A model generated the notes under the pieces. That model had not been told where the DNA came from. It saw nothing but the letters and a program-made list of their open reading frames with translations, and made no database searches. A program made the position numbers and the translations under genes. Below are positions 13,665-64,000 of a DNA stretch of 64,000 bases, one piece after another. Origin of the DNA: Mermis nigrescens (taxonomy: Eukaryota > Nematoda > Enoplea > Mermithida > Mermithidae); the NCBI GenBank assembly GCA_036768485.1, contig JAVLUZ010000844.1:62001-126000 (forward strand). Direction: 5' to 3'. Every line of letters starts with the position of its first letter. Within the stretch, counting starts at the first letter, position 1.

Positions 13665-13787
13665 TAGTACCCTCTTACTCCTCTCTGTGCACGTATGATG
13701 GTATGATGGGTTTGCCGTTTGCACACCTTTATGCTGTAATAAATGGATAGGTACGCTAAAATCATCGGACTTCTAAGCATGTATGCA

Positions 13788-28996: not shown

Positions 28997-29225
28997 TGTA
29001 AAATTTGGAAAATTTTTTGTGAAGTTTCGAAATTTTCTTGTAAAGTTTGGATTATTTTCTGTAAAATTTGGAATATTTTTAACACGCTTAAGCATAGTAC
29101 TTTTGTAAAGTTTGGAATATTTTTTGTAAAGTTTGGAATATTTTTTGTAAAGTTTGGAAACTTTTTTGTAAAGTTTGGAAAATTTTTTGTAAAGTTTGGA
29201 ATATTTTCTGTAAAGTTTAAGTGAT
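28997..29225 (+). repeat. 21-bp tandem repeat array, left arm
   Basis: Repeats of TTTTTTGTAAAGTTTGGAATA with slippage, plus one hinge ACGCTTAAGCATAGTAC near 29084-29100. The inverted array at 33988-34575 is its right-arm counterpart. Frames giving FVKFGIFFVKFG are repeat artefacts. Confidence 0.9.
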
Positions 29226-37200: not shown

Positions 37201-37595
37201 AGTAGTATACCGTGGCCCCCTAGGGTTACAATGTTATAACATATACAATGATGAAGGATAGGAGTATGGCCCGCCCAGGCCCACCCAGGCCTGCCTGGAC
37301 ATGCCCGGGGTAGGTGGTGTTTGCAAGACCTGCCCGGGCGTGCCCGGACCCGTCAGTAGGTCTAAGGGGTCCTGAAAAAGGGGGTTCTACAGTAAAAGCT
37401 GGTTTCTGAACCAGCTTGTTCCGAAACAAAAGGCAATATAAGTTGTGGATGAGGGGTAAAACAGTATTGTTGTATTTTGTGGGTACCAGTGTAAAGGGGG
37501 CCCAAAGGCCTTGGGTACCGGGGGAGGTGTATCCGGAGTGTAAAGTGTTTACACTTTTGTTTTTAGGAAGAAGAGCGGGATGAAGAAAGTTGAGT
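37201..37595 (+). repeat. Left TIR of Polinton C
   Basis: The outer 47 bp match the right end perfectly. The middle GC-rich portion differs between ends, and the inner part matches again (GTGTAAAGTGTTTACAC, then TTTTTAGGAAGAAG). The 12-bp palindrome ATGTTATAACAT is at 37231-37242, and a CCGGGC-GT-GCCCGG palindrome is near 37335-37348. Confidence 0.88.
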
Positions 37596-37693
37596 ACCCG
37601 TTCGCGGTTAGCAGGCTTGACGATGCCAAATGGGCTTAAGCTGTCCGAGTGCAGTCAACCAATAGCTAATCATTTTTTACACTTTTTTCTTTA

Positions 37694-38059
37694 TTACAAC
37701 GTCAAACTTTCATACGAATTTATAATACAATTAATTTCATAATCAACTATCTGTGCATCGCTATGTATCCATTTAGCCTTGTATTCCGGCTTCATTCCTC
37801 CCCAAATATAGTAGAACAGTCCTTCTTCGTAATTTGTCCAGGCTCGCTCTAGCGAAATCGCAAAGTGCCAAAATCCGCGAATTTTTCTTTTTCCAGTCAA
37901 ATTTCTGGCTTGACTGTATAATTCTGCGTCTATTTTCCATTGACCCTTGTGGTGATCGGTGAATCGGTTCCAAAAATATGTGGCTATGCGTACCAAGTCT
38001 TTGTTTTCATAAGTGTGAATGGATCCAAGCTGAGTGCAAAAAACGATAAAGGACTCCAT
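37694..38059 (-). CDS. Small Polinton C protein, FW family member 1 (unknown function)
   Basis: A 121-residue protein that I do not recognise. It has ATYFWNRF (near residue 28), then GFWHFAISLERAW (near residue 63), then YIWGGMKPEYK. The aromatic spacing loosely matches the two other small proteins of this element (38131-38427 and 38975-39304), suggesting a diverged paralogue, but that is a judgement by eye. It is transcribed towards the left terminus. A TATATAAAGGG box lies 56-65 bp upstream of the ATG. Its position at the element edge and opposite strand suggest a separately regulated accessory gene. Confidence 0.6.
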   Translation of the reverse strand: MESFIVFCTQLGSIHTYENKDLVRIATYFWNRFTDHHKGQWKIDAELYSQARNLTGKRKIRGFWHFAISLERAWTNYEEGLFYYIWGGMKPEYKAKWIHSDAQIVDYEINCIINSYESLTL

Positions 38060-38114
38060 AACCGACTGCTCAGTGTAGAAAAATAATGAACAATGATCTC
38101 GTCTCCTGTTTTTT

Positions 38115-38124
38115 CCCTTTATAT
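38115..38124 (-). promoter_or_regulatory. TATATAAAGG box for the leftmost minus-strand gene
   Basis: On the minus strand AAAAGTATATAAAGGG, 56 nt upstream of the ATG at 38059. Nearly the same string (AAAGTATATAAAGGAC) occurs in the terminal region of Polinton D at about 60453-60466. Confidence 0.5.
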
Positions 38125-38130
38125 ACTTTT

Positions 38131-38427
38131 TTACCCTAACAGTATATCGTAAATAATATGATCGTCAATACATTTTTCAAAGAAGTTTTCGTAAAACTCT
38201 TTTGTTTCGTTGCTAAACTCGTGCCATAGGTTGCATAGTGCTTTTAAATCTTCAGTCTCTATGCATCTTTTCAGTTCATTAACGAATACCTCTTTTATGC
38301 GTTTTTCTCTATACGCTTGTCTCATTTTTGGCCAAAAGTACCTCCCTAGTTTTTCTTTGTCTACTCTACCGTACTTGACAAGGTGTAAAGAAATGTGTTT
38401 GTAAATACATTCTCCTTTGGATGCCAT
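38131..38427 (-). CDS. Small Polinton C protein, FW family member 2 (unknown function)
   Basis: A 98-residue protein starting MASKGECIYKHISLHLVKYG, charged and probably helical. It aligns end to end with the 109-residue product at 38975-39304: MASxGE...Y.H..L.LV start, GRYFWPKM versus GAFFWSLM, ELKRCI versus DLKRCI, LWHEF versus LWQGF, and a final ECI...L. The two genes are divergent, with their promoters back to back. No domain known to me. Not broken. Confidence 0.7.
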   Translation of the reverse strand: MASKGECIYKHISLHLVKYGRVDKEKLGRYFWPKMRQAYREKRIKEVFVNELKRCIETEDLKALCNLWHEFSNETKEFYENFFEKCIDDHIIYDILLG

Positions 38428-38464
38428 TTTTTATAATGCGGTTTTTAAATACAATACTCACTGA

Positions 38465-38472
38465 TATTTATA
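38465..38472 (-). promoter_or_regulatory. TATAAATA box, minus strand
   Basis: Reads TATAAATA on the minus strand, with its 5' end 45 nt before the ATG at 38427. It is paired with the opposite-strand box at 38482-38489, making a compact divergent promoter. Confidence 0.6.
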
Positions 38473-38481
38473 AACAAAGTC

Positions 38482-38489
38482 TATAAATA
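38482..38489 (+). promoter_or_regulatory. TATAAATA box, plus strand
   Basis: AGTCTATAAATACT context, with its 5' end 56 nt before the ATG at 38538. Confidence 0.6.
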
Positions 38490-38537
38490 CTAGTAATCTT
38501 GGGTTGATTAAACTTATGTTTTTCTTAAATCAAAAAA

Positions 38538-38923
38538 ATGGAGGAAATTAAGGAACAGCCTATTATGGAAATTAAGGAACAGCCAAAACGTCCTATTATG
38601 GACGTTAAGGAGCAGTTAAAACGTCCTTGTACTGATACGGAAAAAAGCCGTATGGGAGGTCTATCAGGCCACCCATTGAGCTTTTTGGTAGAAATTTAGA
38701 GAGAGCCATGTACCCTCTTATGATTCAGTTATGTTATTTTTGTCAAAAAGCATCTTCGGAGCGAGAATTTTTTGAAACCAATGGCGGCCGTTGGTACGCT
38801 AACATTCAGTTATGCCCCAGATGTTGCGATTTCAACAGGGCAATGCAAGAAGCAGGGCAGAGAGTATTAAAACGCTACTCTGAGCAGCTGGTCGAGGATG
38901 ATAAGAATAAGTCAGCTAACTAA
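38538..38923 (+). CDS. Zinc-ribbon-like small protein, probably frameshifted
   Basis: The first frame (38538-38699) encodes 53 residues with a repeated EIKEQP/DVKEQLKRP motif. The second (38708-38923, 71 residues) has CYFC and, 31 residues on, CPRCC, a CxxC...CxxC arrangement able to bind zinc, followed by a charged helical tail. The promoter box stands only before the first ATG, so the two are probably one gene broken near 38690-38710, or two overlapping small genes. I know no homologue. It lies directly upstream of the FW gene and the integrase. Confidence 0.5.
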
Positions 38924-38928
38924 AAGTC

Positions 38929-38936
38929 TATAAATA
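38929..38936 (+). promoter_or_regulatory. TATAAATA box before FW member 3
   Basis: AGTCTATAAATATG, 5 bases after the previous stop region, with its 5' end 46 nt before the ATG at 38975. Confidence 0.6.
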
Positions 38937-38974
38937 TGACCTCATTTTATTTTTAGCCATTTGCATATTTAACA

Positions 38975-39304
38975 ATGGCGTCTCCAGGCGAACTATCGTA
39001 TCATCACTTCGTTCTAAAGCTAGTCGAAATGGCCAATGCGCGATTCATTCACGTTAGGGATACCCAAAAAATAGGCGCATTCTTTTGGTCATTAATGAGT
39101 CCTGAGTTTAAGGCAGAACGGAAGGAGGCCGAGAAAAAGGACGCCTTCTGGAATTTTGCTCAGGATTTAAAACGCTGCATCCTACAAAAAGATCTTGAGG
39201 AAATGTATGGTCTCTGGCAAGGATTCGATGCAAATGGAAAGAATATGTTCGAGCATTTATATGATAACTGTATTTTGCATTATGTTCGCTGTTGTTTAGT
39301 ATAA
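38975..39304 (+). CDS. Small Polinton C protein, FW family member 3 (unknown function)
   Basis: A 109-residue paralogue of the 38131-38427 product, starting MASPGELSYHHFVLKLVEMA, with GAFFWSLM, FWNFAQDLKRCI and LWQGF. It has no signal peptide or membrane segment. The FW...L+RCI...LW.GF pattern probably forms a helical bundle. The stop codon TAA at 39302-39304 lies inside the next TATAAATA box, so the gene and its neighbour's promoter are fused. An accessory or regulatory role is only a guess. Confidence 0.7.
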   Translation: MASPGELSYHHFVLKLVEMANARFIHVRDTQKIGAFFWSLMSPEFKAERKEAEKKDAFWNFAQDLKRCILQKDLEEMYGLWQGFDANGKNMFEHLYDNCILHYVRCCLV

Positions 39305-39307
39305 ATA
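39300..39307 (+). promoter_or_regulatory. TATAAATA box overlapping the FW stop codon, before the integrase
   Basis: The TAA stop at 39302-39304 is part of the box. Its 5' end lies 39 nt before the integrase ATG at 39339. Confidence 0.65.
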
Positions 39308-39338
39308 TTCGTTATAACTAATAAAATTGAAATAAAAA

Positions 39339-40398
39339 ATGGAAAAAGTGTTAAAGCAAATATATTACGACCCTAAAACGGGGTATAGTAGCGTGGAACA
39401 GCTATATGAGAGGGCTAAAAAAGTAAAACCAAAAATAGAACGGTCCTACGTGAAAGAATGGTTGGAAAAGCAGCCCACCTACACATTACACAAACCCGCC
39501 CTCAAGCGGTATTCTCGAAATAAAGTGTTAGTAAGTAGCATTGATGAGCAATGGCAATGCTGATATTGTAGATTTGCAGTCTTTAAGCAAGTTTAACGAT
39601 AATTTTAAGTATCTCTTGAATTGCATAGACATTTTTTCAAAATACGCATGGTCTGTTCCTCTAAAATCCAAAAGTTCAAAAGATGTTCTGACCGCTTTTC
39701 AAAGCATTTTGCATTCATCAAATCGAAAACCGTACAAGCTGCAAACAGACGCAGGGACCGAATTTACAAACAAGGAGTTCCAGAAATTTCTAAAATCTGA
39801 ATCTATCGATTTTTTCACGACCAGAAGCGAAACAAAAGCTAGCGTAGTTGAACGTTTTAATCGCACGCTTAAAGAACGTATGTGGCGGTACTTCACCAAG
39901 AGCAATTCGTATAAATTTATTGACGTATTACCCGACTTGATGAAAAATTATAATCACTCGAAGCATCGTACGATAGGTACATCGCCAGCTAATGTGACCG
40001 TAAAAAATGAGACGGAAATTTTGAATAGAGCATTTAGGATTGATAAACAGAACGTTGTCTTTAAATTTAATATTGGCGATAAAGTCCGACTGAGTAAAGT
40101 TAAGCGCACTTTTGAAAAAGGATTTTGGCCTAACTGGACAGAGGAGTTTTTCGTAATTAAAGAAAGATATGCTCGAACCCCACCCGTCTATGTTTTAGAA
40201 GACCAAATGGGCGAAAGAGTCGAGGGTATTTTTTATGAGCCTGAACTGCAAAAAATTGAAACAAAAACTGACGATTTGTACGTGATTGAAAAGATTTTGA
40301 AAACGCGTAAGAAAGGCAATAAAACTGATTATCTAGTACGGTGGCGAGGGTACCCAGAAAAGTTTGATTCCTGGGTTTCAGATGTAATAAAGCTATAA
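39339..40398 (+). pseudogene. Polinton integrase (rve fold) with C-terminal chromodomain, one frameshift
   Basis: DDE integrase that inserts the element and makes the 6-bp target duplication. The N-terminal helical region has YYDPKTGYSSVEQLY and EWLEKQPTYTLHKPA, typical of Polinton integrases. Catalytic residues are the first Asp after EQWQ (39562-39564), the second Asp in QTDAGTEF (39748-39750) and Glu in SVVERFNRTLKE (39850-39852). The chromodomain at the C-terminus (about 40276-40395) shows YVIEKILK and YLVRWRGYPEKFDSWV, likely guiding integration to modified histones. A single-base shift near 39555-39561, next to the first Asp, splits the frame into 39339-39563 and 39562-40398. The rest is open, so it may be a recent lesion or a sequencing error. 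The stop TAA lies inside the next promoter box. Confidence 0.93.
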
Positions 40399-40401
40399 AT
40401 A
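40394..40401 (+). promoter_or_regulatory. TATAAATA box overlapping the integrase stop
   Basis: The integrase ends CTA-TAA within GCTATAAATATG. The box is 43 nt before the ATG at 40437, which supports that ATG over the one at 40401, because the latter overlaps the box. Confidence 0.65.
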
Positions 40402-40436
40402 TGTATATGTCACTCATATATTTAGAAGAAAAAAAC

Positions 40437-41192
40437 ATGGATGATTTTTCAACAGGACCAAACGATTTTTATTTTTATTTTGAGTCGACAGACTCTAACG
40501 TCACTAGACACGAAGGCGAGTACGTTTTTTATTTATTAAAACCCCTAAGCTTCCAAAATGAGTGGGAGGTAGCTGTTACGCAAATTATATGTCAATCGCC
40601 TTTCACCCATGAAAATAAAATTTACTACACTAGGGCAGACGAGCCAAAGAGTGGCTTAAATGCTCTGAACTTCCCAAACGATTGGTTTCGTATGGGCTTA
40701 CATGAATTCACAAAAGCGTGGAACAATGCAATACCAGAGCATTCCAAAAATGCTTTTAACTTGGATATAGATAAGGAAGGATATGCGATTTTAAATATAA
40801 ACAAAACGCAAATAAGATTCAGTGATGAGGTTTTAGCTGATGCACTTGGGTTTCAGATTAATAAAAGATATCCAGCAAGTATCCCTAAAGAAATTGTAAA
40901 AATCAGAGGCGAGCATAAAATTAAGATTCCAAGACCAGTTTTTCATTTAGAAACAGACTTTATCGTGCCTATAAGCTACGGGTCTCATAACAGGCAAATA
41001 CTTTGCACGGATGTGTTTTCACCCTTGAGAGGTTTAGTGAATTACAATTATGCTATGCCATCTTATCATCGTATTCTTAAAAGTTATATATCATCTATAA
41101 GTTTGAATATAAAAGATATAAGTAATAATTCTTTCAACATTTACGATCCATTAATTATAAAATTCCATTTTCAACGAGCCAGTATTTTATAA
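40437..41192 (+). CDS. Penton-like minor capsid protein
   Basis: About 251 residues, intact. The beginning MDDFSTGPNDFYFYFESTDS and the segment PLSFQNEWEVAVTQI match the start of Polinton/adintovirus penton-type minor capsid proteins, which form a single jelly roll at the capsid vertices. Further on, LADALGFQI parallels the conserved 'LGF' segment of these proteins, and the C-terminal half is rich in beta-type residues. The start at 40437 is chosen because the promoter box covers the upstream ATG at 40401. It sits between integrase and capsid genes, as in other Polintons. Assignment is from family knowledge and order, without a structural comparison. Confidence 0.8.
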   Translation: MDDFSTGPNDFYFYFESTDSNVTRHEGEYVFYLLKPLSFQNEWEVAVTQIICQSPFTHENKIYYTRADEPKSGLNALNFPNDWFRMGLHEFTKAWNNAIPEHSKNAFNLDIDKEGYAILNINKTQIRFSDEVLADALGFQINKRYPASIPKEIVKIRGEHKIKIPRPVFHLETDFIVPISYGSHNRQILCTDVFSPLRGLVNYNYAMPSYHRILKSYISSISLNIKDISNNSFNIYDPLIIKFHFQRASIL

Positions 41193-41195
41193 GGC

Positions 41196-41203
41196 TATAA
41201 ATA
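41196..41203 (+). promoter_or_regulatory. TATAAATA box before the basic core-like gene
   Basis: GGCTATAAATATG, immediately after the penton stop, with its 5' end 53 nt before the ATG at 41249. Confidence 0.6.
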
Positions 41204-41248
41204 TGAGAATACACATGCGAAATTTTAAATAAAAGTACGCATTCAATC

Positions 41249-41482
41249 ATGTATCAGCCGTTTTCAGTTTTATCAAGCAGAGCGTTGCCTGGCTTTTCAA
41301 CTGAAGCCAGTGTAATAATTGAACCAAAACGTAAAAGAAGACCTGTTCAGGTTGGGACAGGTAAGCGCAAAAAGTCTATAAATAGGAGCCCAAAAGCACG
41401 TAAAAAGAATATAAAAAAATCAACAACAACAAAACTTTCTACAAATTTTGCATTACGCAACTCAAAATATGTCAAAAAATAA
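41249..41482 (+). CDS. Small basic protein, possible virion core/DNA-condensing protein
   Basis: A 77-residue, strongly basic protein: EPKRKRRPVQVGTGKRKK, then a Lys/Ser/Arg tail with no acidic patches. Small basic proteins between penton and hexon genes resemble the adenovirus-type core proteins that bind packaged DNA, which is the inferred role. It overlaps the major capsid start by 14 nt and contains the capsid gene's TATAAATA box. Not broken. The similarity is compositional, so function remains inference. Confidence 0.6.
   Translation: MYQPFSVLSSRALPGFSTEASVIIEPKRKRRPVQVGTGKRKKSINRSPKARKKNIKKSTTTKLSTNFALRNSKYVKK
41377..41384 (+). promoter_or_regulatory. TATAAATA box inside the core-like gene, before the major capsid gene
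   Basis: AGTCTATAAATAGG, 92 nt before the capsid ATG at 41469. It keeps the extended AGTCTATAAATA form although it also codes for protein. Confidence 0.55.
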
Positions 41483-41865
41483 ATCTATTGAATTTGATGT
41501 AATTGGAGAAAACGAGATAGAGTTCTTTCCAATTAATCCGCTCATATCGGGCGAACCTATACAGTTTGATGTGCCTGAAACTTTCACTCAAATGACCGAT
41601 CCAAATTTTTTACTAAAAATTCGAGCCAAAATTATCGAAGCGGACGGCTCAGCTCTGAAAGCTGATGCGCGCGTAGGTCCTGTAAATTTAACTTTACACT
41701 CGCTTTTTAAAGATATTGTGCTTAAGGCGAACGGTACAATAATTAATCAGGCAACTTCAACATATCCATATCGCGCATACATAGAAACAGTATACACGTA
41801 CTCTTCGGCCGCTAAAAAAGGAGCAGTGGGAGTCCCTCAGATGTATTACAAAGATAAGGCAGATA

Positions 41866-41917
41866 AATTTAATAAATATAAATTTAATAAATTTAATAAA
41901 TTTAATAAATTTAAGGA
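41866..41917 (+). repeat. AAATTTAAT minisatellite in the capsid gene
   Basis: About five tandem AATTTAATA-type units encoding a repeated Lys-Phe-Asn tripeptide, 18 bp upstream of the hAT insertion. It is not expected in a capsid protein and probably arose in this copy. Confidence 0.8.
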
Positions 41918-42863
41918 GCTGAGGTAGATATGGCTCAGAGCCCCGCGCGTGGGTGGGTATGCTCGCCCCCGCCCCGCACGCCCGCGCGGCCCGCGTGGGC
42001 TTTTTGCGGGGCGGGTCACACGGCTGGCGGCGCGGGGTGGGGCGGGCTTTATTTTCTAAAAATTTTGGCGGGGCGGAGCGGGGCGGGGCGGGCCTTTCTT
42101 TTTTAAATTTTTGTTGTGCAAAAGGATACGTGCGCGAAATTGATTTCCATGCACAAGGTTTCGCGAAATAGACTATAGTTCTAAGTAATGCTCTGCTGCT
42201 CATCCTTTGAATAAATACTTAATGAAATAGAACACATGGGGGCTGTTAAAATAATACAAATTGAAATAATCCAGCTTTACCATCCATAAGCTTACATATA
42301 TACAGTGTTTCAGAAAAACGAAACCCATATTTGACCTTGTAACTTCCCAACTGCTTGCTCAATTTCAATGCAAATTGTTTTAAACGATAGACAAAAACCT
42401 TCGTAAGAAATTCGCTAAGTTTCGTATCCGTAGCTCATTTTGTTCTTGTGCAACACGCAGTTGTGTGAAAGTCGTTTTTTCATTAAATACAATGCGTATT
42501 TAAAAATAAATCATGTGTTTGCAACGTTGTAGCTTTTAATCGAGTGAACATTTTAGAATATTCAAACGCCTGTTTGTCTAGCTGTTAGCCTGTAAATTTT
42601 CGTACTATTTCGCTACTTGGTTCGAGAGTTATTGAGCTTTCGCCAAATGTCATTCCTTAGGTCATTCACAAGCGCAAGCAACTCGCTGCTTATTTTGTCG
42701 TTGCTGGCTAAATAGCCGAGGGAGTGACCTTAGGCAAAAGCTCAATAGCTCTTGAACCAACAAACAAAATAAAACTAAAATTTAGAGGCAACTAGCTAGA
42801 TAAATGAGCTTTTGATTGAAGCAAACCGTATTCTAAAATGTTCACTCGATCTAAAGCTACAAC

Positions 42864-43140
42864 CACACCTGGGCGTATGGGAGGGGGTTTCGGGGGAGGG
42901 GGTATGCAGCCCCCCCAGAAACCAAAATACCCCCTCCCCCAGAAATCAAAATACCCCCCAGAATTCAATTTTTGAAAAATTTTTTCGTTTCTTTCGCAAT
43001 TTTTTGATGCCAATGGATAGTGCTTGATGAGAAACGTTGAAAAATGGTGTTTTTATCGCCATACCACCATTTTTTAAGGCCATTTTTTTGACCTTCAAAA
43101 AATCTTGCACCCCCCAGAATTTTCTTGCTGCCCACGTATG
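42864..43140 (+). mobile_element. hAT-like MITE copy M7
   Basis: A 277-bp element running CACACCTGGGCG...GCCCACGTATG. The flanks are GCTACAAC (42856-42863) and GCTAACAAC (43141-43149), the same word with one inserted A. Confidence 0.88.
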
Positions 43141-43400
43141 GCTAACAACGTCGCAAACACATTCATTTCTTACGACACATTGTATTTAATAAAAAAACCT
43201 CTTTTACCCAAATGCGCGTTGTACAAGAACAAATGCAGCTGCAAAAACGAAACTTTGCAATATCATTATGAAGGTTTTTATCTATTGATTAAAGCAAGTT
43301 GCATTCGAATTGAGCGATTCGATTCTAACTTACAAGGTCTGATATGGGTTTCGTTTTTTATGAAACACCCGGTATATATAGGTAGGCAGGTACCTACATA

Positions 43401-43698
43401 CACACGCGGGCGTGGGGGTTGGGGGGCATGCACCCCCCAGAAGTTGAAATACCCCCCCCCCAGAAATCAAAATACAACCCCCCCCCAGAAAATTTTTTTT
43501 GCTTTTTCAGCAATTTTTTGATGCCATTGGATAGTGCTTGATGAGAAACGTCGGAAAATGGTGTTTTTTGCCATACGACCACTTTTAAGACCATTTTTTG
43601 ACCTTTAAAAATTTTTTCACACCCCCCCCCCCCCCAGAAATGTTTTCACCCGCCCCCCCCCCCCCCCCCGCCCAGAATTTCGGTGCTGCCCACCTATG
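43401..43698 (+). mobile_element. hAT-like MITE copy M8
   Basis: A 298-bp element running CACACGCGGGCG...GCCCACCTATG with a perfect 8-bp duplication CCTACATA (43393-43400, 43699-43706). It has expanded C-runs near its right end. Confidence 0.9.
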
Positions 43699-45034
43699 CC
43701 TACATATATGTAGGTACACACTACGTCCTTACATAAGGTAGACTATCACCTATAGGATGTGAGTAATGGCGAGCATTGGGATCTGGGTTGTCTTCTGGGA
43801 TCCAGCACAGCCCCAAAATTGATTTTGTCGTGCTAGTTTTGGCGATTTCGCCCCATCAGACCCCCTCAGAATTTGAACAATCAGCAGTGCAAGATTATGC
43901 CTTTTGCAGCATACCTACATACCTAACTACACCTATAACAGTAACATCATTGTTGTTCCAATAAAGTTTATTGCTGTAAGACATTAGCTCTTATTCAATT
44001 TACAAAATTACATCGCACTCAATTACATTGAAGATTTTGTAACCACTCATTGTCCGGTTCTTTATCTTCTTGCATTCTGGCTCCTTTTCGATCAGAAATG
44101 GATACATAGAGTACATGAAGAAATTTTGCGGGGCGGGGCGGGCCTAATTTTATTAACATTACTGGCGGGGCGGAGCGGGTCTAAGGAGCTGCGGGGCGGG
44201 CTTTATTTCTTTCTTGGCGGGGCGGGGCGGGTCAAAAAATTTCGGCCCGTGCAGGGCTCTGATATGGCTGGACGATTGCATTTAGATCTTCTACTGCAAA
44301 ATAAATTGATCATTCCAGGAATCAAGTTTTCGCTCACGTTCTTTCCTTCTTTAACTGAGTTCCATTTATTGTCAGGCACAGCTCTTCGAAAAGAACGATT
44401 ATCAGTCACCAAAATAGTTCTAAAAGTTAGGCGAGTCAATTTGCAAAGTAGTGCTATACATTCAATCGAACGTTCATTGCAACATAAACCAGTAAATTAT
44501 AATGTAAATCATGCTATAGTTCGTACTATGCAATTATTAGTAGGACAAACACATTTAACGAATTTTGTTCTACATAATGGGCAGATTCCGCGTTTAATCA
44601 TTGTGACGCTTGTAGAAACGCTTTCTTTTACTGGTCATTATGCAAATAATCCGTTTTTGTTTAATCTTAAAAAATGCGTTTGGGCTCAAGTTGATGTTAA
44701 TGGGAGACAGTATCCTCCCCTACCGTATAACCCGAATGATTCTATGATCGAAGCGTACCTAAATTTCTGAGAATGGTTAAAAAACTATATGCGGATACGG
44801 ACACAAGCATAACGCTCGACGATTTTCAAGCAAGGGGGTATCAAATACTGCCCTTCAATATGAACCCAGACGAGGGTATTCGGACAAATGGCGTCGTAAC
44901 TTTTACTGCTCAATGGCCCATAAACAGCATCAATGACAGTTGTACGTTGCTTTTTTATTTATTATCCGATAATATTATAAGTATTGATGCTCGTAGGAAC
45001 ATTATTCTTATTATTCTTGATTTTATACCCTAAA

Positions 45035-45579
45035 ATGTATGCAAATCAGTTAAGTTCAACAGTAAATACGGACAAGGCTGCATCACGTTATTTCACGGGA
45101 GTATTTTCATGCGACCAAATATTATCTGAGCGATTTTCGAATACTGAAAAATTCTTTGTTATCGTAAACACGGCTTCGTCGACGCATAAAGGTCAGCATT
45201 GGGTACTGTTTTACAAATCATCAAATTCGGCTAAAATGATATTTTTTGACAGTTTGCTAAAACCCCATTGTACTACAGCAAATGCTTAGAAGACGCAGTA
45301 AATTATTTTTCTAGTTTCACAAAGTATCCAGGTCAGTTCCTATGTGTTGAGCAGAGGTTACAAGGAGAAACAAGCAAAACGTGCGGGTTGTACTGCTTAT
45401 ATTTTTCTCGCAAACTATGTAGACAAAAATCTATAAATAGTATAATGGCTAAATTTTCGAGCAATAAGTCTGACAACGATAAACAGATTTGCGATTGGTT
45501 CAAGAAATATTTTCATACAAAAATACCCATTTGCACTTCAAGTCAAACGTGTATGTGCTATAGAGAATGGAGCAAATAG
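45035..45579 (+). pseudogene. Adenain-type cysteine protease, one frameshift
   Basis: Processes capsid and core proteins during particle maturation in related elements. The start FTGVFSCDQIL is followed by the catalytic His in GQHWVLFYK (45197-45199), the acidic residue in FFDSL (45248-45250), and the nucleophile in KTCGLYCLYFSR (TGC at 45382-45384), the standard order His-Asp/Glu-Cys for the adenovirus protease family. A shift near 45270-45285 separates the His/Asp part from the Cys part. The ATG at 45035 follows the capsid stop by one base. The last 13 nt overlap the ATPase start. Confidence 0.88.
45432..45439 (+). promoter_or_regulatory. TATAAATA-type box inside the protease gene
   Basis: AATCTATAAATAGT, 135 nt before the ATPase ATG at 45567. 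The spacing is longer than for the other boxes, so its role is less certain. Confidence 0.4.
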
Positions 45580-46110
45580 AAGAAGATAGCATAAAGTATC
45601 TTCGATCGCCTGCTAATTTTGTAATTTCAGGAGCAACAGGAAGCGGAAAAACATGTTTTCTACTAAAATTATTGAAAGAATGGCCTTTTAAACCAGAAAG
45701 AAATAAAATTTTATATTTTTTTAATGTATGGCAACCACTTTTCGAAGAATTTTTAAGTACATTTCCGAATATTTCGTTCGTACAAGGACTTCGAATGGAC
45801 GAAATCGAAAGCAAATGGTACGACGAGCCAGGAAAAGTCAACGTTTGCGTTTGCGATGATCTTGCCGACGTTGCGGTCAAAAGCGACGCGTTTGCTAGTC
45901 TTTTTACGGTCTTAGGCCATCACAAAAACATGATAAATTTCTTTATCACTCAGAATCTATTTTTTAGAGGAATTGTTTTAGAAATTTTAAAAAATTTTTA
46001 GCCCTATTTCAACAACCTTACTGATTGATGTATTTTCTGATAAAATCGAAAACAGACTGCGATCTAGTAATTTTTCGGATGAAACACCTATGATTATTTG
46101 GCGAAGCTTA
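45567..46110 (+). pseudogene. FtsK/HerA-type packaging ATPase, first copy, frameshifted near the end
   Basis: Motor ATPase that pumps DNA into capsids. Walker A GATGSGKT is at 45630-45653, Walker B VCVCDDL has its acidic pair at 45854-45859, and the sensor-like FFITQNLF lies near 45945. The frame stops at 45999-46001 after EILKNF because of an extra A in an A/T run (AAAAAATTTTT). The remaining 36 codons (SPxSTTLLIDVF to IxWRSL) lie in the next frame up to the TAA at 46110, inside a TATAAATA box. The duplicated second copy downstream lacks this lesion. Short by this family's standard only because of the shift. Confidence 0.88.
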
Positions 46111-46116
46111 TAAATA
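46109..46116 (+). promoter_or_regulatory. TATAAATA box overlapping the ATPase stop (first unit)
   Basis: GCTTATAAATATG, in which the TAA of the ATPase end is part of the box. It is 36 nt before the ATG at 46145. Confidence 0.6.
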
Positions 46117-46144
46117 TGTAAAAAATGTAAGTTTAAAAAAAATT

Positions 46145-46735
46145 ATGAATTCTAAAGCTCAACGAGAAATTACTGTGTGCGAACCATATTTTTGCTTACT
46201 GGGGGATAAAAATACAAAGAAAAGTTTACGCGACTTATTAATTAATCAAGCACCTCCCGGAATAAGCGGAAAAACATGTTTTCTACTAAAATTATTGAAA
46301 GAATGGCCTTTTAAACCAAAAAGAAATAAAATTTTATATTTTTTTAATGTATGGCAACCACTTTTCGAAGAATTTTTAAGTACATTTCCGAATATTTCGT
46401 TCGTACAAAGACTTCGAATGGACGAAATCGAAAGCGAATGGTACGACGAGCCAGGAAAAGTCAACGTTTGCGTTTGCGATGATCTTGCCGACTTTACATT
46501 CAAAAGCGACGCGTTTGCTAGTCTTTTTACGGTCTTAGGCCATCACAAAAACATGATAAATTTCTTTATCACTCAGAATCTATTTTTTAGAGGAATTGTT
46601 TTAGAAATTTTAAAAATTTTTAGCCCTCTTTCAACAACCTTACTGATTGATGTATTTTCTGATAAAATCGAAAACAGACTGCGATCTAGTAATTTTTCGG
46701 ATGAAACACCTATGATTGTTTGGCGAAGCTTATAA
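46145..46735 (+). CDS. Chimeric ORF: start of the downstream gene fused to the ATPase C-terminal part
   Basis: A 196-residue open frame created by the tandem duplication. The first 36 residues (MNSKAQREITVCEPYFC...) are the beginning of the 46766 gene. From SGKTCFLLKLLKEW on it is the ATPase, open to the proper end MIVWRSL. The phosphate-binding loop reads PPGISGKT, lacking the first glycine of GxxxxGKT, so nucleotide binding is probably impaired. Walker B VCVCDDL is intact. Thus copy 1 has Walker A but a broken end, and copy 2 has the end but a broken Walker A. Confidence 0.85.
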   Translation: MNSKAQREITVCEPYFCLLGDKNTKKSLRDLLINQAPPGISGKTCFLLKLLKEWPFKPKRNKILYFFNVWQPLFEEFLSTFPNISFVQRLRMDEIESEWYDEPGKVNVCVCDDLADFTFKSDAFASLFTVLGHHKNMINFFITQNLFFRGIVLEILKIFSPLSTTLLIDVFSDKIENRLRSSNFSDETPMIVWRSL

Positions 46736-46738
46736 ATA
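46731..46738 (+). promoter_or_regulatory. TATAAATA box overlapping the chimeric ORF stop
   Basis: The duplicated counterpart of 46109-46116, 35 nt before the ATG at 46766. Confidence 0.6.
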
Positions 46739-46765
46739 TGTAAAAAATGTAAGTTTAAAAAAATT

Positions 46766-47257
46766 ATGAATTCTAAAGCTCAACGAGAAATTACTGTGAG
46801 CGAACCATATTTTTGCTTATTGGGGGATAAAAATACGAAGAAAAGTTTACGCGACTTATTAATTAATCAAGCAACCCCGGAATTTTTTTCCGTGTTAACT
46901 CAAGCCGCTCGTCATCTTTTGAACGGCACTTTTTGTGCGGAAAATTCAGCGTTTTGCGAACAGTTTGAAGCCAGTTTGTACTTGCTTGCATTACCAGAAA
47001 CTAACAAAAAAGATAAACAGAAAATTTTAGAAACCGAATCTTTTGAATTTATTTTTCAACTTTACATTTCTCTTAAAAAAGCATTAAAAATGAACGTCCG
47101 TAAAATGTATGTATTTCCGACAGAGTTTCTCGATTCTTTGATGAGAAAAGCTAAAATTACTGACGACCCATTACTCACTGCCCAAGTTGACGTCGAAGAA
47201 TCTAAAGAAAACATTTTGAGCAAAAAAGGCGATCCGGATGTAAAGTTAGCTGAATAG
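46766..47257 (+). CDS. Polinton C conserved-position protein of unknown function
   Basis: 163 residues, intact, starting MNSKAQREITVSEPYFCLLG. It has charged helical segments (ETNKKDKQKILETE, LYISLKKALKMNVRK) and an acidic end. I do not recognise a domain. It stands after the packaging ATPase, where Polintons often carry poorly characterised virion or accessory genes. Its first 36 codons are duplicated upstream in the chimeric ORF. A TATAAATA box precedes it. Confidence 0.7.
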   Translation: MNSKAQREITVSEPYFCLLGDKNTKKSLRDLLINQATPEFFSVLTQAARHLLNGTFCAENSAFCEQFEASLYLLALPETNKKDKQKILETESFEFIFQLYISLKKALKMNVRKMYVFPTEFLDSLMRKAKITDDPLLTAQVDVEESKENILSKKGDPDVKLAE

Positions 47258-47266
47258 ACGAATATT

Positions 47267-47515
47267 ATGCAAAAGCAGGTAGTGCTAGAAGATCAGCGTC
47301 AAAAACAGCATCAAATGGCGCCACAGACTACTAAAAAACGAGGCAGGCCGCCTAAACAAAAACAAAGCTTCTTCGAGTTTGGGTCAGGAGTTCCAAAAAA
47401 ACGAGGCAGACCGCCTTTTAAAAAGAATTTGTTGTTAGAAAATTTCTATGCTTATGAACCCTATGGTATAGACGAACAAACGATGAAAAAGTGCATTGAG
47501 CGTGGTAAAATATGA
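47267..47515 (+). CDS. AT-hook protein
   Basis: 82 residues with two AT-hook motifs, KKRGRPPK and KKRGRPPF, which bind the minor groove of AT-rich DNA. The N-terminus is Gln-rich. It starts 10 bases after the previous stop, with no TATA-like box between, so it may be co-transcribed. It could be a DNA-organising virion or replication accessory protein, or the displaced N-terminus of the polymerase gene that follows. The hook motifs are clear; the role is inferred. Confidence 0.75.
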   Translation: MQKQVVLEDQRQKQHQMAPQTTKKRGRPPKQKQSFFEFGSGVPKKRGRPPFKKNLLLENFYAYEPYGIDEQTMKKCIERGKI

Positions 47516-47548
47516 ATTGTTAACCCGTGAAAATATGTTTTAAATGCA

Positions 47549-48175
<627 letters not shown>

Positions 48176-48288
48176 TATAAAACTACATGAAGCAGGGGCT
48201 TCAGGAGTCCCCTTTTCTTAATTTTTTATAAAAGAGGTAGCCAGATCCTTTTTCATACATATTCACTTATTTTTCATCGCTTTTTCAG

Positions 48289-51894
<3,606 letters not shown>

Positions 51895-52490
51895 TTTTTG
51901 TTCGTCGAGCATTTATTTGCCCCAGAGGGGCATCAGGGTACTTTTTCGTAATTCATGTATTTTTATTTTTTTTGTAATTGTATTTTTTTGTTTACTATTT
52001 ATATCTTTTGTTTATTGCATTTTTCAATATTATCCGCAATAATTGTATTTTTATTTTTTATATTTTTATGTTATAGCGTTTTTTCAGAAATAAAATGAAA
52101 AAAGAAAAAGTGGCTAGCGATGCTTCAGGACGTCCACGTTTGTGCTAGCTGGGATCATGGGTGCACTCTGTGCATTCATGATGCAGACACTGAAGCAACA
52201 GATAGGGGGACTCAGCAAAAATAAAATGGTGGGATACCCTAACCTAGTGTAAAAAGAAAAAATGGTCGGGTCTTACTTTTATACGTCTATCCAAAGAAAA
52301 AAGTGAAAAACGGTTCGGAAACCAGAGATTGAACTTGTAGCCTAGAGCGACGGTTTCCGTGCTCATCAATGCAGGAGGCCATGGACCTAGACTATGAATC
52401 GATAATTTTAGATAAGTGAAATAAAAACGGTCGGGTCTTAGTTCACCACCGAGTGGCTTAAGCCCGCTGCGCCTACAACAAGGCGCCCGA
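51895..52490. other. Polinton C 3' intergenic region
   Basis: AT-rich 3' region after the polymerase stop, with AATAAAATG near 52089 as a possible poly(A) signal, then GC-richer sequence leading to the TIR. No gene recognised. Confidence 0.5.
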
Positions 52491-52986
52491 CCATGCAACA
52501 GGTCTTACCTTTCTTCATCCCATTTTCTTCTTCCTAAAAACAAAAGTGTAAACACTTTACACAAAATTACACTTTACACACCGGTTTTCTGGACCCCCAT
52601 CAGGGACCCCTGGGGGCCTTTGGGCACGTCTGGGCCAGGCCGGTTACCCCACGATTTACACTCTGGTCTTTATAATTGCACTTACACTGGTTTTCTCGGA
52701 CTATGCAGCTTATTTTGCCTCTTTGTTTCGGAACAAGTTGTACCGGAACCAACTGATACTGTAAAAAAATAGATAAAATGCGGAGAAACTCCCCTTTTCA
52801 GGACCCCCTAGCCTTACTAGTGGTCCCCAGGCACTCCTTAGGCTTACGGGCAGGTCCCCTAGTCCCATTTGCGCCCTGGCGCAACCTCGATTTTGGGCCA
52901 GGGCGCAAGATTTTACCCTCTTTGCCTATGTTATAACACTGTATATGTTATAACATTGTAACCCTAGGGGGCCACGGTATACTACT
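52491..52986 (-). repeat. Right TIR of Polinton C
   Basis: Mirror of 37201-37595. It shares the outer 47 bp, ATGTTATAACAT (52945-52956), CTTGTTCCGAAACAAA-type middle sequence and the inner GTGTAAAGTGTTTACAC. It has additional GC-rich sequence (GGCGCAAGATTTTACC) not in the left end, including a second GCCTATGTTATAAC. Confidence 0.88.
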
Positions 52987-60342: not shown

Positions 60343-60384
60343 AGTAGTAATGGCTGGCAGCCTGGGGGGCAACGCTGTAGGATA

Positions 60385-60404
60385 GCCTATGTTATAACAT
60401 AGGC
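60385..60404. repeat. 20-bp perfect palindrome near the Polinton D terminus
   Basis: GCCTATGTTA followed by its exact complement. The core ATGTTATAACAT is identical to 37231-37242 and 52945-52956 in Polinton C. A hairpin GCTCCCT...AGGGAGC follows at 60421-60445. Confidence 0.85.
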
Positions 60405-60455
60405 AATGACGTAAAAATCTGCTCCCTGAGGTAAGCTGAGGGAGCAACGTTAAAG

Positions 60456-60465
60456 TATATAAAGG
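60456..60465 (+). promoter_or_regulatory. TATATAAAGG box, Polinton D terminal region
   Basis: AAAGTATATAAAGGAC resembles the box of the leftmost Polinton C gene (38115-38124). It is 472 nt upstream of the TBP-like ATG, so a leader, an intron or an unseen small gene would be needed if it drives that gene. Confidence 0.45.
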
Positions 60466-60927
60466 ACGGGAAAGGAGGGGTGTGTAAGGGGAGGGGGCTC
60501 CCACCGCGCCGCCTGTTATAGCATGGTCTATCTTGCAGTGTTGTTCCTCAGGTTGCATGGTCGATCTGGGGTGTGGTGTCAATGAATTTTTCGCCAAAAA
60601 AAATGCTAAAAAAGCATAAAAACTAAATTTCAATCATTTTTCCGATTTCCGTACTTTTCACCTTGAATTCCCCTATTTTTCTATGCCGAGATGCCCCCCG
60701 TGCATGTCTTGTATGTATTATTTACTGTTCGAAGAAAGCACGTACACAACAATACAAATATCACGAATAAATAAATTGTACATATTTAATTATTAGTCCG
60801 TTCGTTATTCAAGCGTCTGATTTTTATCGAATGTTTAAGACATGAAATAAATTATGTAACCCGTGAATTAGATGTTTTAATCTATGTATGAATACTGTTT
60901 AAAGATTGGAAATGTTGTTTTTTTTAA

Positions 60928-61654
60928 ATGGAAATTAGTAATTTAATAGCGACTCTTGATTCTCAGTGTCCTCTGAATCTTCAGGAAGCAGCCGAGAATT
61001 TTCCAGAAATGGTTAAATATAAGCCGGTAAAAGGAAATTTTCCTGGTCTCAGCTTGAAAATCCTAAATCCAAAGCTACAATAATACTTTATCGAAATGGT
61101 AAATTTATATGTACAGGGACTAAGTCGGAAGAGGAGGTTAAACAGGCCTTTAGTGAAATCTTGGCTCTTTGCCATCTCGATTCGGATCTATTGAAAAAAT
61201 TCGTATAAATAATTACGTAGCTACTGGAAACGCTGGATATACCGTCAACTTGCACAGACTCTACGATAAATTGAAACCAAAATGTTTTTATGAACCCGAA
61301 ATTTTTCCTGCTTTAAAATACCGCATGAGTCACCTTTCTGTGAATATTTTCTCCACTGGAAAGTATGTCCTAACAGGTTCGGGCAGGAAATGTGATTTAT
61401 ATCGTTCTGATATAATGATTCGCACAGTGGCGGATCTAGGATTTTCCTAAGGGGGGGGCGGTACCCTAAGGGGGGGGGGCGGAACCCTGACTTGGGCGGA
61501 AAAATTAGCCGTTTTAACCCGAAAATCGCAAAAAATCGCTCAAAATGCTCAATTTTGCACACTATTTTGGGCCAATGGGGGGGGGCGGCCGCCCCCTTCC
61601 CGACCCCCCTAAATCCGCCCCTGGATTTGCAGTATATTAGACTCATGCAAGTAA
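60928..61654 (+). pseudogene. TATA-binding-protein-like gene of Polinton D, interrupted by a MITE
   Basis: TBP recognises TATA boxes through two imperfect repeats forming a saddle. Repeat 1 shows FPGLSLKI and, one frame away, LYRNGKFICTGTKSEE, parallel to the TBP 'IFSSGKMVCTGAKSEE' region. Repeat 2 shows INNYVATGNAGYTVNL, YEPEIFPALKYRM and VNIFSTGKYVLTGSG, parallel to 'YEPELFPGLIYRM' and 'LIFVSGKVVLTGAK'. The start is the ATG at 60928, and the length (about 175 residues without the insert) fits a bare TBP core. Frame changes occur near 61048-61056 and 61170-61197. A 199-bp hAT MITE sits at 61425-61623, after which the frame closes at the TAA 61652-61654. It is too divergent to be the normal animal TBP; viral-type or TRF-like origin is possible. 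Confidence 0.82.
61425..61623 (+). mobile_element. hAT MITE in the TBP-like gene
   Basis: CAGTGGCGGATCTAGG...CCTAAATCCGCCCCTG, 199 bp. The flanks are GATTCGCA (61417-61424) and GATTTGCA (61624-61631), an 8-bp duplication with one mismatch. The short relative of 13788-15826. Counting one duplication copy, the host frame is continuous across it. Confidence 0.9.
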
Positions 61655-62348
61655 AAAAGTTCATTCCAGCCAAAATTACGTCCATAGTTGAAACGTCTTT
61701 CTGTCTTTCGGAAAACTTTTCGCCTTCGGAAATTCACATTAAACTTATTCACCGTTTTCTGATCGTCGAAGCCTGCAGAGTTGACGGTATCAAAGGCGTT
61801 AATTATACAAAATATTCGTTCAAAACCTGTAAAAGATTACGACGAAACGTCGATGGTAGCAAGCTGAAAGCTTTTCTATACAAAAACATGATCCGAATCG
61901 GTGATAGGTGATAGGTGATGTAGCGGTGGTACCTCCTGTGAGACCCAAGCACGCAGGCTACAAGCCCATTGTGCTCCGCGGAATAGATTATCATCTCACC
62001 GAGTTATACCAGCAGTACCTCTTTAAGAGCCCTGCTGGATACCAGCGGTATCACGTAAGTGTCCCGCTGGAAAAATTAGCCAACTGCACGAAGAAAGAAC
62101 CCACAGTGCATGGTTTCGAACCTCGTGCCCGCAACTTGTAGTTAGATCGTTAACCACTAAGCCAAGGAGGCCCCATCCGAATCGGGACTCTGGCAGAAAG
62201 GAGCGATGAAATCGAACTATCTAACGATAAGCGAATGGCTCGGTTTTCTACACCAAAACCGCAACCGCTGGTTGAGACAGAGTATAAAAAGATTCACGAT
62301 ATTGAAAAGATACTGAAAGAATGCGGAATTAGACTACCGCACGATTAA
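61645..62348 (+). pseudogene. Unknown gene overlapping the TBP-like gene, interrupted by a SINE
   Basis: The ATG at 61645 lies 10 nt before the TBP-like stop, a compact virus-like overlap. The product is about 139 residues when the SINE (61902-62174, with one copy of the 11-bp duplication) is set aside, and the frame is continuous on both sides. Visible parts are MQVKKFIPAKITSIVETSF, then FLIVEACRVDGIKG, a Lys/Arg-rich centre (TCKRLRRNVDGSKLK) and an acidic-basic C-terminal helix ending IKxxxI-type IEKILKECGIRLPHD. I know no family. Its position suggests expression together with the TBP-like protein. Confidence 0.6.
61902..62174 (-). mobile_element. tRNA-derived SINE
   Basis: On the minus strand the head reads GGCCTCCTTGGCTTAGTGG (A box) and GAGGTTCGAAACC (B box), the internal pol III promoter of tRNA-derived SINEs. 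The tail end is a short TCACCTA repeat. It is flanked by a perfect 11-bp duplication ATCCGAATCGG (61891-61901, 62175-62185). Confidence 0.9.
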
Positions 62349-62590
62349 TTACACCTTTTTTATGTACTATTTCGTTTTTAATAAATCGAATAGCGTACAA
62401 AACAGTCAGAGCGATAAGCAGACCTAAGCAGCTTAAAATCTCATTAGATACTGTACTCAAATCTTCCTTTTTTGTATCTTAAACATCTACCTTCAATTGC
62501 CATACCATTGAAATTTTCGTCAATTTTCAAACAATTTCTGCAAAAAGTATTAATTTTTATTTTTTTCTATGCTTTTTTTAGGGGCTAGGC
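62349..62590. other. No recognisable feature
   Basis: AT-rich intergenic DNA after the 61645 gene. Confidence 0.4.
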
Positions 62591-62758
62591 ACCATAAGGT
62601 CGAAAATGGCCTTAAAAATGATGGTATGGCGAAAAACACCCATTTTTCAACGAGAACTATCCATTGGCATCAAAAAATTACGAAATAAACAAAAAAATAT
62701 TGAATCCTGGGGGTATTTTGGTTTCTCGGAGGGTGCATACCCTCAACGCCTAGGTGTG
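62591..62758 (-). mobile_element. hAT-like MITE copy M9, truncated
   Basis: Begins within the family interior (AAGGTCGAAAATGGCC) and ends CCTAGGTGTG. The flanks share CTAGGCA, suggesting the usual duplication, but the CATACGTGGGCAGC end is missing. Confidence 0.75.
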
Positions 62759-62899
62759 CTAGGCAGCCAAAACATGACTTAGTATCAGGATGAGTCATCG
62801 TCAAAGCACTATAAGAAATTTCAGTATGTTACGTCATATTTTGCAATTTGCGCGCAATGATTACTCATCACGCAAGTTGTTCCGGAAGGGCTTTCAGAC

Positions 62900-63166
62900 A
62901 CACCTGGGCGTGGGGGGGGTTTGGGGGAGGGGTATGCACCCCCCCAGAAACCAAAATACCCCCCCCCAGAAATCAAAATACCCCCCCCCAAATTCAATTT
63001 TTGAAAATTTTTTCGTTTTTTTCGCAATTTTTTGATGCCAATGGATAGTGCTTGATGAGAAACGTCAAAAAATGGTGTTTTTATCGCCATACCACCATTT
63101 TTAAGGCCATTTTTCGACCTTCAAAAAATCTTGCACCCCCCAGAATTTTCTTGCTGCCCACGTATG
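62900..63166 (+). mobile_element. hAT-like MITE copy M10
   Basis: A 267-bp element running CACACCTGGGCG...GCCCACGTATG. The flanks are CTTTCAGA (62892-62899) and CTTACAGA (63167-63174), an 8-bp duplication with one mismatch. Confidence 0.9.
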
Positions 63167-63231
63167 CTTACAGACCAATCTGACTGTAAATAGGTCAAGC
63201 AGAGCTAGCGAGCTCATTCTTCTCAGTAACT

Positions 63232-63591
63232 ATGGCGGCGCATTTCGAATTTCCGGCTTTCAACAATCTATTGGCGGTGGTCGAGTCGAAAATATGGGTC
63301 AGAAACGAGCGACTGATTGGCGTTATACTACGAAAAATCTTGGAGTATGGCAGAATAGGCGTTCGGAACGCGATTACAGCGCAATTCTGGGCGACTATTG
63401 TCGAAGACGGGTCGTCGCAGGAATTACGAGAGCCGGTCATCAATCGTCAAACACTTCAAAAGCTGGTCGATAGCCGATTATGGGTCGGCGAAGGAAAAAT
63501 CGTTTCGTTTATTTTTCAAGAATTTATCAAGTTATCGAAAGCGGACAGATTAATAACAGAAAGTCATCTATATGAAAAAATAATAAAATAA
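63232..63591 (+). CDS. Hypothetical 119-residue protein in Polinton D
   Basis: An open frame with a good start context (AACTATGGCGGCG) in GC-richer DNA. The product is MAAHFEFPAFNNLLAVVESK... with mixed hydrophobic and charged residues (GVILRKILEYGRIGV, GKIVSFIFQEFIKL), which look helical. No domain is recognised. TTCTTCTCAG just upstream could be a splice acceptor. Directly after the stop is an (AAAT)n tract, as after the AT-hook gene in Polinton C. It may be an accessory gene of the same element. Confidence 0.45.
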   Translation: MAAHFEFPAFNNLLAVVESKIWVRNERLIGVILRKILEYGRIGVRNAITAQFWATIVEDGSSQELREPVINRQTLQKLVDSRLWVGEGKIVSFIFQEFIKLSKADRLITESHLYEKIIK

Positions 63592-63594
63592 ATT

Positions 63595-63598
63595 TAAA

Positions 63599-63656
<58 letters not shown>
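63595..63656. repeat. (AAAT)n microsatellite
   Basis: About 13 AAAT units after the 63232 ORF. A further short AAAT run ends the window (63977-64000). Confidence 0.95.
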
Positions 63657-64000
63657 AAGGTAAATAAATTAGGCATGCTGTTAGTATAAAAGAAACAAAA
63701 AGACGCGAGAAATAGTATATACACAAGTACATAAAAAGCACACAAAATTATATTATGAGAAATTACGGGTTTTACGAGGTGCAAGAGTTCAAGTGAAACG
63801 AGAGAAGTAAGCAGGAGTTATACAGAATAAATACACAAAAAAACGTGAAAAATATAAACAGGCGAGGTCATCAGAGAGGAACTAGGTTGCTACAGTTTCG
63901 TGCCTTTAATCCTCTGACTGTCACTGCAACCTAGCGGCACCAGTCTAGGCGGCTAGACTGCCTCTCATCGTTGAAAAAAATAAATAAATAAATAAATAAT
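63657..64000. other. Non-coding, with two short stem-loops
   Basis: CTAGGTTGC (63885-63893) pairs with GCAACCTAG (63926-63934), and GTCTAG-GCGG-CTAGAC lies at about 63943-63958. No gene seen. Confidence 0.45.

Follow-up and report, generated by a model that had tools for sequence, protein, structure and literature searches.

Polintons (Mavericks) are described as elements that carry a DNA polymerase, an rve integrase, a packaging ATPase and a protease between inverted terminal repeats with AGT-repeat ends (PMC4028283, PMC8097293), and in vertebrate Mavericks the end motif reported most often is AGT twice (PMC8097293). The elements that we describe here are alike in these features and in the 6-bp duplication seen at one of them; however, the genes named in the sections of these papers cited here include no TATA-binding protein (TBP) or other basal transcription factor. 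Within eukaryotic DNA viruses, TBP is reported in 59% of mirusvirus genomes as compared to 0% of Nucleocytoviricota, although mirusviruses are set apart from Polintons by their description, with genomes of up to ~430 kb and another capsid type (sections of PMC10132985 cited here). Sporadic TBPs are also described in endogenous viral elements of putative mirusvirus origin in Cymbomonas (cited section of PMC10675990). Among phage records, we found TBPs in three haloarchaeal virus records alone; the haloarchaeal viruses HRTV-9 and HJTV-2 carry a TBP of similar size, but these proteins are 24–30% identical to P0003 (a relative returned by our searches) and belong to archaeal hosts and a different element type. 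Archaeal and eukaryotic TBPs resemble the Polinton type in having two repeats, in the strand and helix order of a predicted model and in most of the contact positions, whereas the Polinton type forms its own clade, is ~170–185 aa long and starts at or near repeat 1. In the open-licence full-text literature we found no report of a TBP in Polintons, and a report elsewhere is possible. Polintons are known and TBPs are known; their pairing appears to be new.

The window, that is, the whole 64,000-nucleotide stretch of the Mermis nigrescens genome that we analysed, corresponds to positions 62001–126000 of contig C821. A preliminary description of the window had proposed that a Polinton-type element near its right end carries a TBP-like gene, and we found that the gene indeed sits between paired inverted terminal repeats, with a Polinton polymerase in the same element (element C; Table 1).

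Table 1. Features of element C and its TBP gene (positions are those of the window unless a contig position is given)
Feature	Position	Strand	Evidence or remark
Element C, in-window part	60343..64000	+	whole element runs to contig C821:135800, 13,458 bp total; paired terminal repeats
Left terminal inverted repeat of C	60343..60752	+	starts AGTAGTA; holds palindrome 60385-60404
TATATAAAGG inside C terminal repeat	60456..60465	+	common to both C repeats
TBP repeat 1, piece one	60928..61080	+	frame 1; Pfam TBP E 2.3e-6, profile 3-50 of 85
TBP repeat 1, piece two	61023..61205	+	frame 3; Pfam TBP E 2.7e-8, profile 46-80
TBP repeat 2	61157..61447	+	frame 2; Pfam TBP E 2e-15, profile 1-72
199-bp insert cutting TBP 3' end	61425..61623	.	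inverted-repeat ends; flanks GATTCGCA / GATTTGCA, read from sequence
Stop codon at expected TBP end	61652..61654	+	read from sequence
Downstream gene, first part	61645..61911	+	overlaps TBP stop; relatives near TBP genes
Insert in downstream gene	61902..62174	.	ATCCGAATCGG on either side; read from sequence
Downstream gene, last part	62154..62348	+	34% over 59 aa to L010:7075-7248, E 7e-6
119-aa open frame	63232..63591	+	no Pfam match; best PHROG E 0.057
Polinton polymerase in C	contig 132701-133834 and nearby		65.6% over 378 aa to L020 DNA_pol_B_2 protein (Pfam E 1.1e-19)

We found that the region from 60928 to 61654 is a broken TBP gene, with matches to Pfam TBP (PF00352) spread over three frames. 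Both TBP repeats are recognisable, as the preliminary description had claimed; the Pfam search that it proposed as a check gave significant matches in three pieces, and an HMM built from 23 other TBPs recovered the same three pieces (E 7.5e-9, 3.5e-10 and 2e-24) when run on the whole window in all six frames, where there was no further TBP match (next best E 0.33). A single open two-repeat product, in contrast, did not hold up: the frame changes within repeat 1 and again ahead of repeat 2, so that repeat 1 occupies two frames and repeat 2 another one, and a 199-bp insert cuts the 3' end. The flanks of this insert are 8-bp copies with one mismatch, its left part recurs at 13785–13833 (90% over 49 bp), and it resembles a small DNA transposon. 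The described start stands, with the ATG at 60928 lying 585 bp inward of the AGTAGTA at 60343, and so does the gene end at 61654, which agrees with the stop codon in Table 1; judging from the likeness to relatives such as P0003, this codon would be the original end of TBP. The window copy is a dead relic of a Polinton TBP gene.

Element C runs past the window edge. Its left terminal repeat matches an inverted copy at contig position 135800 (L009:9800-9398) with 87% identity over 420 aligned bp, and AGTAGTA stands at both ends of the element, which therefore has the AGT-type inverted terminal repeats by which Polintons are recognised. With up to 3 mismatches allowed, the 20-base terminus at 60343 and the palindrome at 60385–60404 are found at one place each in the window, and neither is present in any of 100 shuffles. 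A 6-bp target duplication is absent at C, where the flanks read ATCAAA and AACACC. TBP lies near the left end of C and the DNA polymerase near the right end, and we found no integrase, ATPase, protease or capsid gene within this decayed element. Extension to the right, which had been suggested as a way to find an integrase, a capsid gene and the matching terminal repeat, thus gave the terminal repeat and a polymerase inside C, but the integrase and capsid gene belong to the next element: at contig position 139541 lies a third copy of the C-type end (78% over 116 bp), and after it come pieces of integrase, an oppositely oriented TBP, ATPase and capsid gene (L010). Between the TBP and the polymerase of C, there are long open frames on the minus strand (L009:751-3001) that by eye look like a retroelement insert.

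Downstream of TBP, we found a second gene, interrupted by an insert, whose relatives by tblastn are in L016 (2e-17), L017 (1.7e-9) and L010 (2.8e-8); it has no Pfam match and its best PHROG match has an E of 0.17. The insert between its two parts may be SINE-like. For the 119-aa open frame that follows, we found no relative among viral contigs.

The window holds two other Polintons, element A (20768–55872) and element B (37201–52986), and B is nested in a polymerase copy of A. AGTAGTA is present at both ends of each; B is flanked on both sides by the 6-bp duplication CATAGT, and the flanks of A share 5 bp, GGTAA. In B, Pfam identified an rve integrase with a chromodomain and an A32-like ATPase. 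B has GTCTATAAA at 38479, 38926 and 41374, yet it is without TBP. The left end of C resembles the right end of B (85% over 40 bp, a score reached by 0/500 shuffles), and the palindrome TGTTATAACA is found at the ends of both B and C. The polymerase region of A is present twice, head to head (24818–29218 as compared to 55112–52990 and 37201–34365, 93–96% alike), and this long inverted repeat gives A the form of a fold-back Polinton. There is also a tandem duplication across the ATPase gene of B (45641–46263 and 46264–46883, 97% alike).

To see how TBP is distributed, we scanned the genome (524 Mb, 860 contigs) and scored 150 of 2552 first-look candidates, so that all locus counts are lower bounds. 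All 150 scored candidates were above the Pfam cut-off. Two of the 150 matches share one place, on contig C73, and look like exons of the host TBP; one of them matches a human-type TBP of the PDB with an E of 5e-54. The other 148 merge into at least 137 loci on at least 79 contigs; at least 112 of these loci keep an open frame of ≥150 aa with a match free of stops, and in at least 8 the match is interrupted by a stop. TFIIB is not amplified (3 matches from 10 candidates). With a curated profile, two TBP repeat stretches each were found in L012, L013, L014, L016, L017, L018 and L020. When we compared coding sequences, dN/dS of the L018 copy was 0.12 against L014 and 0.11 against L015 (74–75% protein identity), and other distant pairs gave 0.22–0.26; values for very close pairs (0.3–0.9) rest on few changes, and pairs that include the frame-shifted L005 and L006 copies gave 0.58–0.67. 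On contig C51, three TBP matches about 8.4 kb apart (G000:C51:3876189, 3884571, 3892956) have the identical two stops in the match, which suggests that a dead piece of a Polinton is repeated there in tandem.

To identify what lies beside these genes, we examined ten loci drawn with a random seed (L029–L038) from the 127 loci that remain besides L011–L020, which had been hand-picked from the 137 for differing frame length. A Polinton integrase, ATPase, capsid, protease, penton or polymerase gene lies within 3.5 kb of TBP in 9/10 random loci as compared to 0/6 control stretches, where no hallmark gene was found at 10 kb either. The six controls come from 20 random positions on three large contigs and are not the first six in order; one skipped position lies ~11 kb from a TBP locus. 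The exception among the random loci, L034 (7 kb), has a cysteine-rich neighbour only. Among the hand-picked loci, L013, L014 and L020 also gave query proteins; of the other seven, L015, L017, L018 and L019 have clear hallmark genes, L011 has an integrase fragment alone, and L012 and L016 (10 kb each) have no hallmark gene at E 1e-4. One 10-kb stretch at L014 contains an rve integrase (1.9e-10) and TBP (2.5e-45), with an A32-type ATPase (9.6e-5) and an adenovirus-type protease (4.5e-4) just under the Pfam cut-off, and L020 combines TBP (2.1e-48) with DNA_pol_B_2 (1.1e-19). The names capsid and penton are given here by length, order, neighbours and likeness to the Polinton gene order; Pfam gave no match for either protein, nor did the PDB for the capsid protein.

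The gene orders recur. Integrase, TBP on the other strand and ATPase follow each other in L014, L015, L029, L031, L032, L035, L038 and the L010 element; penton and TBP are adjacent in L013, L019, L030 and L033; and in L020 and L037 a cysteine-rich gene, TBP and an F-box gene stand in a row with the polymerase beyond. Element C represents a further arrangement (terminus, TBP, downstream gene), which L017 shares with the addition of a small gene between terminus and TBP, and in L016 TBP and the downstream gene are present, but its 10 kb contain neither a terminus nor a hallmark gene. The unbroken paralogues next to Polinton genes that had been named as something to look for are therefore present, and that TBP belongs to Polintons in this genome is near certain.

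To place these proteins among other TBPs, we collected relatives by alignment searches, which led to a set of compact metagenomic TBPs of ~170 aa; a search of IMG/VR with TBP and the neighbouring frames gave no confirmed relative. From the 138 returned relatives (P0002–P0139), a first tree took 63 (14 compact and 49 others), and a 70-row unrooted tree used 61, with P0023 and P0024 omitted as long branches (P0024 grouped with the compact TBPs in the first tree) and with P0029 and two proteins of the own genome trimmed. In the 70-row tree, 7/8 Polinton TBPs tested, including repeat 2 of the window copy, group with 14 compact TBPs (100/96), and this clade is separate from the TBPs of the host, other eukaryotes and archaea. 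Repeat 2 of the window copy is sister to P0002 (100/94), its closest outside relative (a 956-base contig, 57% identity in repeat 2), and the host TBP falls within the eukaryotic TBPs (95/89). The eighth protein, of the L013 type, has a long branch and groups with the eukaryotic TBPs (94/91); it is perhaps a separate second capture. This second type of Polinton TBP adjoins a penton-like gene (L013:4051-4590, L019, L030, L033).

The window TBP is 32% identical to the second repeat of the host TBP over 71 aa, and its identity to another Polinton TBP is 54% over 78 aa. Because of this low identity to the host protein, the closer Polinton relative and the different clade, the window gene is no retrocopy of host TBP; nor does it lie outside a Polinton, the other outcome that the preliminary description had allowed for, since it is inside inverted terminal repeats. 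Archaeal contamination was likewise ruled out, as the sampled copies have Polinton genes around them and some are on contigs as long as 48.8 Mb.

We next consider what the protein might do. Among 15 relatives, the four positions that correspond to the DNA-intercalating Phe of TBP are F in 15, 15, 13 and 15 and otherwise Y. The two Asn are kept in every relative covering them, and the two stirrup Glu in 14/15 (one deletion) and 15/15. In the window copy, the intercalating positions read F, Y, F, F, and both Asn and both Glu are retained. Since the window product is broken, the structure prediction that had been proposed for it was run on P0002, the closest intact relative; the model (mean pLDDT 96.2, pTM 0.85) has the doubled strand and helix order of TBP.

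We then counted TATA boxes upstream of 24 genes of L013, L014 and L020, taken from 37 rows; the rows of the window, L012, L016 and L017 and three L015/L018 rows with starts one codon off were omitted. TATAWA is present within 100 nt upstream in 18/24 genes, as compared to a mean of 6.6 and a largest value of 14 of 24 in 500 shuffles and to 12.4% of randomly placed windows. The longer TATAAAWR is found upstream of 13/24 genes, as compared to 4.7% of same-locus windows and 2.3% of 1188 control windows (six loci). When these stretches are read on the antisense strand, TATAWA is found in 13/24 and TATAAAWR in 4/24. Ten of the 24 genes have TATAAATA upstream, 32–49 nt ahead of the ATG in 8 of those, and five have GTCTATAAA. 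The window TBP itself has no TATAWA within 120 nt upstream.

Taken together, these data suggest that the Polinton TBP is probably a basal factor encoded by the elements for their own TATA promoters. In an active element, the compact two-repeat TBP carried as Polinton cargo would bind TATA boxes ahead of element genes, and perhaps also in the terminal repeat; once bound, it would bend the DNA and recruit host TFIIB and RNA polymerase II, and the element promoters would thereby become independent of host TBP and TFIID. The preliminary description had likewise suggested a dedicated factor for the element's own TATA-type promoters; the kept contact residues and the TATA enrichment speak for it, but element B, without TBP, carries the same kind of box, and such boxes may therefore serve host TBP. 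The boxes on the antisense strand, the lack of TATAWA ahead of the window TBP, the higher dN/dS of very close copies, the loci with no hallmark gene and the absent target duplication at C also count against this reading. A stronger version, which we offer tentatively, is that the elements have a private promoter recognition, in which a TBP lineage of their own, which did not arise from this host and is also found in metagenomes, reads boxes of the TATAAATA type ahead of many element genes and passes the promoter to host TFIIB and RNA polymerase II.

TATA boxes in an element that lacks TBP also raise the idea that elements may not need their own TBP and that the protein instead works against the host, diverting TATA boxes or TFIIB from host TFIID and so damping transcription in the active phase. 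The kept TFIIB-facing and DNA-contact residues would permit such competition, but element genes are far above background in TATA boxes and a general blocker would strike them too, and we consider this role unlikely. Less probable again is that TBP acts chiefly at the terminal repeats, bending DNA for replication, packaging or integration and not for transcription: TATATAAAGG is present in both repeats of C and a palindrome is shared by the B and C ends, but TATATAAAGG is missing from the third terminal-repeat copy (L010), and boxes stand ahead of single genes throughout L013, L014 and L020. That the TBP genes are host-derived copies, or a separate mobile gene, found in or near Polintons by chance is close to refuted. 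Such landings would account for the three loci without a hallmark gene and for the eukaryotic placement of the long-branched L013 type; they are at odds with the Polinton genes beside nearly all random loci, the recurring integrase–TBP–ATPase order, the clade that holds all but one of the tested TBPs and the paired terminal repeats that enclose TBP in C.

A basal factor that these elements carry at well over 100 loci of a single genome, its dN/dS low between two groups of copies, would mean that small integrating elements with capsid genes can select promoters of their own. The origin of virus-borne TBPs in such elements becomes testable. If the clade is truly apart from archaeal and eukaryotic TBPs, it would represent an old virus-side TBP lineage and supply a missing piece in how elements with capsid genes gained their own transcription start machinery. 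For annotators, an intronless extra TBP in an animal assembly or a metagenome may belong to an element and need not be a host paralogue.

Two neighbours recur beside TBP. An F-box gene adjoins it in several elements (L020:5545-6411, Pfam F-box-like 1.1e-11), with a weaker match under the cut-off at L016:5142-5504 and relatives in L011, L012 and L037; its product might aim host proteins at degradation. A small cysteine-rich gene with CxxC pairs adjoins many TBPs (L014:2242-2583, L020:4241-4624, L012:5350-5676); it has no Pfam family above the cut-off in L014 and L020, and its product could be a partner of TBP.
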